Shown here: one piece after another, positions 3,883-6,830 of the stretch | How positions within the stretch are numbered: position 1 is the first letter of the stretch | Layout of the letters: each line of letters starts with the position of its first letter | Origin: Paracoccaceae bacterium | Lineage (GTDB): Bacteria > Pseudomonadota > Alphaproteobacteria > Rhodobacterales > Rhodobacteraceae | Length of the DNA stretch: 64,000 nt | Direction: 5' to 3' | NCBI GenBank assembly: GCA_018607905.1 | Contig: JABBAP010000072.1 | Span: 1-64,000, forward strand | Program-made: the position numbers and the translations under genes | The notes under the pieces: model-generated | Seen by the model: the letters and a program-made list of their open reading frames with translations, nothing else | The model's database searches: none | Told to the model about the DNA's origin: nothing

Positions 3883-4401
3883 TCAGAAGATTTCTTTGGT
3901 GAATATTTTTCGTGTTGGGTCTTCACTTGCTGTCTCTTGTAATTCTTCGGTTACAGTAAACCCAGCATTTATGAACAGGTTTTCGGAGGCGTGATTTCCG
4001 CTCCAAACATCGGCAATGACTGCATCTAATCTCTGAGATTTTGCCTTGTCGGAAATGAAAGACAGAAGAGTATGCGCAATTCGGTTTCGTCGGAAAGGCG
4101 GTTCTACAGCTATATCAATGATGTAAGTGCAGCCATTGAAAGTATTGGTTCGCCCTGTTTTGAACATTACGAACCCAACGAATTCCGAGTTTGATTTGGC
4201 AACTAAGATCGTTTCAGAGAGTTTCCTTCTATTTCGCCAATCTAGTAGAAATTGATCTTCGATGGTTGCTTGAACGGACGGGAAACACTCTATCGGGAAA
4301 GCAGTCGGAACTAATTCATGGTGTTCCCAAAATGTGCTTTCAGAAAGGCGAATTATGGGTTCTCGGTCTTCCCAAACTGCTTGTTCTATTTTCAAGTGCA
4401 T
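3883..4401 (-). CDS. GNAT-family N-acetyltransferase
   Basis: 172 residues with an acetyl-CoA binding motif A: the beta-strand YIIDIAVEPPFRRNRIAHTLL around residues 92-112, followed by the DAVIADVWSGNHASENLFINAGF block typical of GNAT motif B. The substrate is unknown. ATG start at 4401. The gene is clearly AT-richer than its flanks and lies between two palindromic repeats, next to an Abi-type gene in the same orientation, so it may have arrived with it. A role as a modifier or antidote for the neighbouring HEPN protein is possible but not supported directly. Confidence 0.85.
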   Translation of the reverse strand: MHLKIEQAVWEDREPIIRLSESTFWEHHELVPTAFPIECFPSVQATIEDQFLLDWRNRRKLSETILVAKSNSEFVGFVMFKTGRTNTFNGCTYIIDIAVEPPFRRNRIAHTLLSFISDKAKSQRLDAVIADVWSGNHASENLFINAGFTVTEELQETASEDPTRKIFTKEIF

Positions 4402-4442
4402 GAAATTTATTATTAGATTTGGGTAGGTCGCGCAAGCGGCCC

Positions 4443-4530
4443 GCGCCTGACCTCCCCCATGGGAGGGCGCATTGGTGGGGTTGTGCTTGGTGCTAGGGGA
4501 GTGGAGTGCGCCCTCCCGAGGTCAGGCGCG
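4443..4530. repeat. Long composite inverted repeat
   Basis: Arm 1 (4443..4471) reads GCGCCTGACCTCCC, then CCAT, then GGGAGGGCGCA. Arm 2 (4507..4530) reads TGCGCCCTCCC, then GAGGTCAGGCGCG. Arm 2 is the reverse complement of arm 1 apart from a few bases in its centre, and the arms are separated by about 35 bases. Each arm also has internal dyad symmetry. It occupies the space between the Abi and GNAT genes. There is no T-tract, so a plain intrinsic terminator is unlikely; a BIME/MITE-like element or end of an inserted segment fits better. Confidence 0.75.
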
Positions 4531-4548
4531 TGCCTTGGTTGAGGTTTG

Positions 4549-5460
4549 CTATCGACGCTTCATGTAAGTCGCTGTAGCAAAATCTACAAATGCGATTGCA
4601 CAAGACGCGGCAAGTCGTGCATGTCGAGGTTCTAACCCATAGTGATTTCCATCACGTCCATGACCTGAACCGTACAACCCACGTAATTCGGCAATGCCCT
4701 TCGTAACTGAAGTTAAATTGCTCAAAGTGCGCTTGATGATTTCGGCGCCCTTTGCCTCGCTTGGTATTCCCTCAGGGACAAGTCCTAAAACTTTGCACAT
4801 CTTTTTAGATAGTGTTGGCAAATCGTCTTTTGGGGAAACTTCAATATTGAATTCATCAAGGATAGCTTTGCAGCAAGATTCAACTAAATCCTTCGATGTT
4901 CCAATCGCCAAGGCAGGGTCGGATTCTACTGAGTTTTGAATTCTATCTATCTCGGTTTGCATCCAGTTTGATTGAAGGATTTCAGCGGCAGATGTTGCAC
5001 GATTTATTTTACTTTGAAACTCCTCGGATTTTTTTGCAATATAGACAGCCCTTCCAGCTATTTTTTCCGCCTCGACGAGTTGAATGCCCGCCAATGAAAG
5101 CTGGTCATTGTAGTGTTCGACAAGTTCTAAAGCCTGTTCACGGTCAGGTCGGACAACAGGGTGGACAGTCTCGCATAAAAAACGCAAAAATTTTTCATCG
5201 TTGCATCTTAACAATCCAAATCGTTTGTCTGAGAATATCCAGTCGTCTTCCCAATCAAAATTGAAATCACGATGCATGTAGATGTCGTCGTTTGCCGTTG
5301 AATAACGAGTATCATATGAAGGGAGCGCTTCTAAATCATATAGGCGAGAGAGAAAATCTACATCTCCGAGTTCTCCACTGAAACAAACTCCAGCAAGACG
5401 AATCCCGTCAAATATGTTGTTTCGAATTTTACTTGAAATCAGTTGCCAATCCTCCCCCAC
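4549..5460 (-). CDS. Abortive-infection protein, AbiJ-type N-domain plus Abi_C (HEPN) domain
   Basis: About 303 residues. The N-terminal half ([40 protein letters not shown]) fits the AbiJ-like N-terminal domain 3 family. The C-terminal half ([10 protein letters not shown], then [14 protein letters not shown] and [16 protein letters not shown]) fits the Abi_C family, a HEPN-type domain; R260 and H267 give the R-x6-H ribonuclease signature. The predicted role is RNA cleavage or dormancy on phage infection. The upstream GTG (5460) lacks a Shine-Dalgarno; a CTG at 5442 has GGGGGAGG eight bases ahead and overlaps the rimO stop as CTGA, so it may be the real start. The gene is AT-richer than rimO. 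Confidence 0.8.
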
Positions 5461-6830
5461 AAATCATACTCACTCGCCTCATCAACTTCAACGCTAACCA
5501 AATCCCCAGCGTTCAACCCTTCAAACCCCTCATCAATGAACAGGTTGCCGTCGATCTCGGGCGCATCGCTCATCGTGCGACACGTCGCTCCGTCATCCTC
5601 AACACTGTCCACAATCACCTGCATGGTCGTGCCAACTTTGGCTTCCAGTTTCGCCTCAGAAATCGCTTGGGATTTTTCCATGAAGCGGTTCCAGCGGTCT
5701 TGTTTGACGTCGGCGTCCACGTGATCGGGCAGGGCGTTTGATCGCGCGCCGTCGACGTTTTCGTATTGGAAGCAGCCGACGCGGTCGAGTTGAGCTTCGT
5801 CGAGCCAATCGAGGAGGTGTTCGAACTCGGCCTCGGTTTCGCCGGGGTAGCCGACGATGAAGGTGGAGCGCAGGGTGATGTCTGGGCACTGGGCGCGCCA
5901 TGCGGCGATTTCATCCAGCGTTTTGGCGGAGGCTGCGGGGCGGGCCATGCGTTTGAGCACGTCTGGGTGGGAGTGTTGGAACGGGATGTCGAGGTAGGGC
6001 AGCAGGCCGTTTGACGGGTCTGCCATGATCGGAATCAGGTCGCGCACGAACGGGTAGGGGTAGACGTAGTGGAGGCGCACCCATGCGCCGAGTGTCCCAA
6101 GTTCGCGGGCGAGGTCGACGATGTGGGAGCGGACTTCGCCATCCTTCCACGGGTTCATGTCGTGGCGGCGGTCTAACCCGTAGGCGGAGGTGTCTTGGGA
6201 GATGACGAGGAGTTCTTTGACGCCTGCATCCACCAGCTTTTCTGCTTCGCGCAGGATCGCGTGGGCAGGGCGGGAGGCAAGGCGTCCGCGCATGTCTGGG
6301 ATGATGCAGAATTTGCACTTGTGGTTACAGCCCTCTGATATCTTGAGGTAGCTGTAGTGGCGCGGCGTGAGGGTGACGTTTTGGGCGGGCAGCAGATCGA
6401 CGAAGGGGTCGGGGCTGGGCGGAACGGCGGTGTGGACCGCGTCGAGCACCTGTTCGTATTGGTGCGGGCCGGTGACCGCGAGGATTTGGGGGTGATGTTC
6501 GCGGATGTAATCGGGTTCTGCGCCGAGGCAGCCCGTGACGATGACTTTGCCGTTGGCTTGGAGCGCTTCGCCGATGGCATCGAGTGATTCAGCCTTGGCG
6601 CTGTCGAGGAAGCCGCAGGTGTTGACGATCACCGCTTCTGCGCCCGCGTAATCGGGGGAAATGGCGTAGCCCTCGGCGCGCAGGCGGGTGAGGATGCGTT
6701 CAGAGTCCACCAGCGCCTTGGGGCAACCGAGGCTGACCATGCCGATTTTAGGTTGGTTGGGGCGCGCGTCGCCATTCAGAATGGCTTTGGGCGCGAGATC
6801 GGGGCGGAGGCTGGGTGGGTTCTGGCTCAT
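5439..6830 (-). CDS. rimO: Ribosomal protein S12 methylthiotransferase RimO
   Basis: 463 residues, full length. Order of domains: UPF0004/MTTase N-domain with three cluster Cys ([29 protein letters not shown]), radical SAM core with CNHKCKFC near residue 170, and a C-terminal TRAM domain. RimO adds a methylthio group to an Asp of ribosomal protein S12 using two 4Fe-4S clusters. The [12 protein letters not shown] and YLDIPFQH motifs separate RimO from MiaB. ATG start at 6830. Its last 22 bases overlap the longest reading of the Abi gene downstream. Confidence 0.97.

Follow-up and report, generated by a model that had tools for sequence, protein, structure and literature searches.

The question raised by this locus is how a gene of the abortive-infection type came to begin inside the end of a housekeeping gene, and what it may draw from that position. 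The window, meaning the whole stretch of 64,000 nucleotides analysed here, belongs to genome G000, which bears an AbiJ-type gene overlapping the end of rimO. The ORF that the sequence-only reading had placed at 4549-5460 is real and its coordinates are right; it lies on the minus strand (Table 1). No intergenic region precedes the gene, which shares bases with rimO, the minus-strand junction sequence being TTGTGGGGGAGGATTGGCAACTGATTTC, and the GC content of its ORF is 0.43 versus 0.54 in the rimO tail. Also exact in the sequence is the arrangement described at the junction, a Shine-Dalgarno (SD) sequence in the final rimO codons, eight bases ahead of a CTG that overlaps the stop codon as CTGA. 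With GGGGGAGG placed at 8 nt in the upstream gene, the two genes have the start-stop anatomy expected of a translationally coupled pair, with CTG as the candidate start.

Table 1. Features of the rimO locus in window coordinates (domain coordinates were converted from residue positions; all duplex energies refer to an anti-SD sequence that we took as an assumption)
Feature	Position	Strand	Remarks
AbiJ-type gene	4549..5460	-	303 aa from GTG 5460, 297 aa from CTG 5442
rimO (ribosomal protein S12 methylthiotransferase), docking host	5439..6830	-	TIGR01125, 2.2e-160
CTG candidate start	5440..5442	-	Overlaps rimO TGA (5439-5441) as CTGA; SD duplex -10.9 kcal/mol
GTG, first conventional start of the ORF, within rimO	5458..5460	-	SD duplex -7.6 kcal/mol, 12-nt gap
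GGGGGAGG, Shine-Dalgarno-like, inside the rimO WGR codons	5451..5458	-	8-nt spacer to CTG
AbiJ_NTD3 domain (PF18860)	4957..5439	-	Residues 8-168; E 4.6e-48
Abi_C/HEPN-type domain (PF14355)	4576..4815	-	Residues 216-295; E 1.7e-21
R260 codon	4681..4683	-	Within Abi_C domain
H267 codon	4660..4662	-	Within Abi_C domain
Palindrome, starting 14 nt past the AbiJ stop	4438..4534	-	Fold -59.4 kcal/mol, z -4.5
GNAT acetyltransferase gene, on the far side of the palindrome	3883..4401	-	Pfam, 1.1e-14

The predicted protein was said to join an AbiJ-NTD3-like N-domain to an Abi_C/HEPN domain, and the profile search matched both, with 163.2 bits for AbiJ_NTD3 (Pfam cut-off 32.5) and 76.5 bits for Abi_C (cut-off 24); PADLOC also gave an AbiJ match (5.6e-11), and an NCBIfam profile search of the protein gave none. 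The Rx4-6H active-site motif is present as R260-x6-H267, and both residues, claimed to be kept, are indeed unchanged throughout an alignment of 15 sequences (the query and 14 homologs). According to the accessible part of Anantharaman 2013 (PMC3710099), AbiJ proteins consist of one of the domains AbiJ-NTD1 to 5 fused to an AbiJ-type HEPN domain; the paper predicts that HEPN domains bearing Rx4-6H act as RNases without a metal and that the NTDs have a sensing or restraining role. By its profile matches the gene is thus an AbiJ of a described subgroup, and its family membership is ordinary. An N-terminal extension of ~100 residues found in some relatives (L064, L002, L007 and L114-L116) is absent from this protein. 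An AlphaFold2 model (pLDDT 54.8, from an alignment of 4 rows) was left unused, and the best PDB sequence match had an E-value of 0.24.

Which codon starts this protein is about evenly balanced between CTG and GTG. The rare CTG start proposed earlier holds up as plausible, having the best SD and lying one residue ahead of the AbiJ_NTD3 match, which opens at profile position 2; its use is unproven, and GTG 5460, absent from that reading, is a conventional alternative in the ORF's frame, one codon past an in-frame stop. CTG was accordingly given up as a certain start, with GTG 5460 staying in play. The SD before CTG is also well spaced, and its duplex is stronger than the one before GTG; for the window's 34 ATG ORFs with a length of 250 aa or more, not every one of them a gene, the median is -5.9 and the 5% quantile -9.8. 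Short-form relatives (L106, L113, L119, and L109) have a Met 2-4 codons ahead of the first residue of the AbiJ_NTD3 match, and L065 has a TTG 6 codons ahead of it. The E. coli initiator tRNA favours GUG and UUG over CUG, as stated in the available portion of PMC11497404.

Comparison with close relatives indicates what the gene may have displaced. rimO was sought in 33 genomes of the genus, which yielded 26 loci with a rimO ortholog, 24 of them with a usable 3' end. In two of the relatives, G004 and G016, the rimO end carries no ORF that qualifies. The block shared by G000 and G016 runs to position 148 of G000 and is picked up again at 1064, 11 nt past the AbiJ stop, which ends at 1052; in G031 compared with G016, rimO-side homology ends at 153, the stop of a T5orf172 gene ends at 1023, and homology resumes at 1030 (6 nt). 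In both genomes the rimO-side homology ends in the last codons and resumes at G016 286-288, and ~137 nt of native sequence, including the first hairpin, is missing relative to G016. The limits of this missing stretch are blurred, since the first hairpin of G016 (196-244) is also matched by the G000 palindrome at its right end (1127-1175). Judged from these alignments, the AbiJ gene looks like an ORF-sized replacement compared with G016 and G004. The replacement in G000 and G031 amounts to one ORF plus a few nt, and no integrase, recombinase or transposase was found in the inserted unit.

The same slot is filled by other genes elsewhere. G003, whose rimO is 96% identical, has a homolog of PD-Lambda-5_A (1.7e-71; a single component was examined), with homology to G000 resuming 38 nt past the G003 stop; G031 has the T5orf172 protein (1.1e-10; weakly PDC-S57); and G349 has a protein matching FRG (1.3e-19) and PDC-S15 (3.1e-88). 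Three unrelated genes therefore start at one rimO tail in three close species (G000, G031, and G003), and with G349 the position carries, by profile matches, the varied accessory defence genes at one core position that characterize a defence hotspot. This turnover suggests that the slot contents are interchangeable genes that may borrow the expression of the housekeeping gene. The rimO residues after YDLWG vary between relatives within the genus. In L354 (G010), a 177-aa ORF without family (1562-2095) lies 42 nt past rimO, between rimO and the palindrome and beyond the counting window used below. In undocked loci (L086, L090, L091, and L095; L054-L058 and L088) rimO is followed by a native small gene or an opposite-strand gene, which we take to be a CDGSH-like small gene or a YigZ-like gene; the slot thus has native neighbours too. 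Further downstream in the window, the GNAT gene looks like a second acquired gene. Its interval holds a different small ORF in G016, G004, and G031, three genomes in which rimO is separated from the next shared gene by a small opposite-strand ORF, presumably CsbD.

The frequency of such arrangements was assessed by counting docked ORFs, defined as same-strand ORFs with a minimum length of 150 aa, a first ATG, GTG, or TTG between -60 and +25 from the host stop, and a GC content at least 0.08 below that of the last 300 nt of the host; the GC rule was fixed after a first look. Loci were drawn from the top of similarity lists, and host stops were located from the alignment end in all sets. For rimO, 11 of 113 usable loci (115 loci in all) were docked, 3 of 24 in the genus and 8 of 89 outside it, and for parE the count was 6 of 29 usable loci (30 loci). 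All controls were undocked (0/119 usable of 120), namely gyrA (0/30), guaA (0/30), recA (0/29 of 30 loci), and miaB (0/30), where one case just misses the GC rule (-0.079). Fisher tests against the pooled 0/119, a set comprising four genes only, some of which precede native genes that might themselves block docking, gave p values of 2.8e-4 for rimO, 9.3e-4 for rimO outside the genus, and 3.6e-5 for parE.

Two GNAT genes (L093 and L148) with docked architecture and a smaller GC difference bring the rimO cases to 13. These comprise AbiJ, PD-Lambda-5_A, FRG/PDC-S15, T5orf172, the two GNAT genes, one transglycosylase, and six ORFs without a convincing match, so that 3 of the 13 (the GNAT genes and the transglycosylase) are not defence-like; the six docked rimO ORFs, and six at parE, gave no convincing match in either Pfam or PADLOC. 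Twelve of the 13 lie in the -1 frame, compared with 4 of 12 other qualifying, mostly spurious-looking rimO ORFs (p 0.003). An NTG stands at exactly -4 in six of them, as CTG (the AbiJ-type gene), GTG, TTG, TTG, GTG, and TTG. The NTGA overlap was considered as a selected feature and rejected: any TGA stop gives NTGA, and the rimO stop is TGA in 52 of 113 loci, so that 6 of 13 is no excess. In one genome, G092, different low-GC ORFs are docked at rimO and at parE (L143 and L205).

The closest homolog found for the AbiJ-type protein, L065 from a metagenome-assembled Alphaproteobacterium (70% identity over residues 76-303 and 67% over 8-76), has a frame split by a frameshift and overlaps a parE stop as TTGA (host identified by TIGR01055, 7.7e-232). 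With L065 at parE and the present gene at rimO, both docking sites hold members of this gene family. The protein is otherwise thinly distributed: matches of any kind were found in 30 of 394 genomes of the family (G000 included), mostly to the C-terminal part only, and AbiJ_NTD3 in 8 of 385 genomes of the class (G000 included), 7 of them above the cut-off. Plasmid records gave 97 matches and phage records 5, all below 60% identity, and a scan of viral contigs confirmed no relative. A phage origin was rejected on the basis of the few and distant phage records and the negative viral-contig scan.

What makes the ends of rimO and parE receptive may lie partly in their ribosome-binding potential. 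The G-rich SD stretch at the junction largely coincides with conserved C-terminal codons of rimO (DLWG: TTG TGG GGN) and is present in gene-less relatives as well, and the parE tails inspected mostly read GAGGAGCTGGATGTTTGA or near it. SD strength was higher in rimO and parE tails than in pooled controls (p 0.002-0.007), and the SD-likeness of docked rimO tails exceeded that of undocked tails only marginally (p 0.056). An SD-like tail may therefore help docking. A built-in SD as the sole cause was rejected, since recA tails are as SD-like (median -7.2), yet undocked. Among the parE loci, L209 (and, by inspection, L189) can use a built-in ATG, and L205 and L208 can start at -4.

The palindrome beside the AbiJ-type gene is homologous to those downstream of rimO in G031, G003, G016, and G004, is found at rimO without an ORF in G004 and G016, and has in the genus a loop that resembles the loop of the nearest species. 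It had no Rfam match up to E 0.1, and it is possibly a terminator or a REP-like element. A pattern built on its right arm occurred at 1 place in G000, 2-3 places in the seven other genus genomes searched, 6 in G255, and 24 in G035, compared with 0-2 matches per genome for the reversed pattern, which in G000 equalled the pattern itself. One pattern site lay near rimO in seven of the eight genus genomes, the rimO palindrome of G003 being too degenerate for the pattern. A looser search, reaching 260 nt from the stop of the host or of the docked ORF, detected the palindrome in 7 of 113 rimO loci (4 docked), in one of 30 for parE, and in none of the 120 controls.

Regions around 36 palindromes (23 from G035, 4 from G255, and 9 from the genus) were examined with a stricter rule, an ORF of at least 150 aa with a GC content at least 0.10 below that of the locus. 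Eight low-GC ORFs were found, all of them within 250 nt of a palindrome (2.4 expected under uniform placement); one of the eight is the G035 rimO case already counted. In G035, an AbiJ_NTD4 gene (L362, 2566-3390; 9.4e-27) lies 13 nt past ureC in a urease cluster and adjoins a palindrome, and a low-GC ORF without a Pfam match (L363, C1:445560-450560, 1776-2357) overlaps the pheS stop by 4 nt within pheS-pheT and has a palindrome after it. In a palindrome region of G255, a low-GC ORF lies 9 nt past parE; a further palindrome-region ORF encodes a putAbiC protein (4.2e-23), and in L389 (G010) a DUF4268 gene (1422-2525) between pyrB and pyrC abuts pyrC and has the palindrome at its other end. Outside the list produced by the GC rule, a DUF3800 gene follows the palindrome at lepA in L393 (G014), and L394 (G021) has a very similar lepA end and palindrome without that gene. 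The idea that the palindrome marks docking exclusively was rejected: of the 23 palindrome regions from G035, only 5 hold a low-GC ORF and 18 hold none, and the G000 pattern is no commoner than its reversed control.

Taken together, we lean towards the view that this is a single-gene, abortive-infection-type defence ORF, barely more than the ORF itself, docked on the 3' end of rimO. As read from the locus and its relatives, it is probably promoterless, free of an integrase, and translationally coupled to rimO. The coupling appears anatomically plausible, because no 5' intergenic region exists and because other genes, nearly all in the same frame, take up this slot in relatives. The AbiJ-type gene would be transcribed from the rimO promoter by read-through, and ribosomes ending rimO at UGA could re-initiate at the overlapping CUG, aided by GGGGGAGG, or start at GTG 5460. 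The NTD3 would then sense a phage cue and free the HEPN domain, which, as a predicted metal-independent RNase acting through the active-site residues R260 and H267, would degrade RNA and arrest the infected cell. Gene transfer agents are common in Rhodobacterales, and the ORF may have moved by homologous recombination via conserved flanks, for example of gene-transfer-agent DNA, in which case an integrase would be unneeded.

It is also conceivable, if rather unlikely, that the junction is an ordinary operon overlap, in which a horizontally acquired AbiJ gene starting at GTG 5460 settled at a harmless end of a transcription unit, with no special coupling or slot. GTG is a conventional start, L065 has 6 residues ahead of a shared ISxK motif, much like the 7 found here when counted from GTG, the variable rimO tail tolerates change, and NTGA is not in excess among the docked cases; however, the SD of GTG is weaker and its gap long, and tolerance alone leaves the recurrence at rimO and parE, as opposed to none in four controls, unexplained unless the two ends differ from the controls in being unit ends. 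An independent promoter within the rimO coding sequence, serving for instance expression upon infection and making the overlap accidental, seems improbable: coding sequences can hold promoters, but the unrelated genes behind the rimO tail in relatives would need one shared internal promoter or one each. It is very improbable that the gene goes unexpressed, as either a relic in decay or an artefact of assembly. The frameshift in the nearest homolog and the possible CTG start would fit decay, whereas 303 uninterrupted codons, intact domains, unchanged active-site residues, and the same architecture with long open frames in G031 and G003 argue against it.

The docked defence ORF thus remains our preferred reading at this locus. 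Its extension to the whole family is tentative and open to considerable doubt: single promoterless immune ORFs might be swapped at the last codons of rimO, parE, pheS, ureC, and other genes, mostly in the -1 frame, with the host end providing the ribosome site and in many cases also the start codon, and with the palindromic repeat marking or mediating the exchange. If this were true, a new defence gene lacking both a promoter and a ribosome-binding site would become expressed through its placement at the end of a housekeeping gene, fed by every ribosome that completes the housekeeping protein. The non-ATG starts at -4 (CTG, GTG, and TTG) would then be scars of an incoming ATGA joined to the TGA of the host. 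It would also provide a search rule, by which an ORF of low GC content that overlaps the 3' terminus of rimO, parE, or pheS becomes a candidate defence gene in this bacterial family. Immunity would moreover be tied to housekeeping translation, and we may speculate that host shut-off by a phage could alter the amount of the HEPN protein.

Several known systems share parts of this picture. Integron gene cassettes pair one promoterless ORF with an imperfect palindrome next to it, a composition that is shared here. The cassette explanation was not favoured, as no attC-like core (RYYYAAC/GTTRRRY) was seen by eye at the boundaries, and as the palindrome is present at rimO without an ORF in G004 and G016. 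In the AbiJ family as described in the accessible part of PMC3710099, AbiJ_NTD3 likewise precedes Abi_C/HEPN, and R-x6-H falls within the Rx4-6H range; here, however, a G follows R260, a position that is typically polar in that description, and the gene starts within a housekeeping gene. Tn7-like transposons with defence cargo (PMC8649781, available portion) resemble the locus in being placed downstream of intact conserved genes, whereas the unit here is ~0.9 kb and no transposase turned up among the four proteins scanned at this locus.

The available texts on E. coli defence islands (PMC10121019) and P. aeruginosa core defence hotspots (PMC10250203) likewise describe defence-gene exchange at a slot flanked by core genes. 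Those hotspots are islands, many of which carry mobile genes such as an integrase or a recombinase (cDHS1 has a median size of 26 kb according to PMC10250203), whereas here one ORF shares bases with a core gene; rimO is absent from the text at hand of both papers and parE from that of PMC10121019. Among the matches listed from open-licence titles and abstract starts, no defence genes docked on rimO or parE were described, and no open-licence paper was found that combines rimO with hotspot, integration, or defense; the sole paper found for rimO and abortive infection (PMC11551772) deals, in its rimO passages, with expression after integron deletion. The AbiJ subgroup protein and the existence of defence hotspots between core genes are already known, but a one-ORF unit that shares the stop of a housekeeping gene and recurs at several gene ends looks like a new form of defence hotspot.
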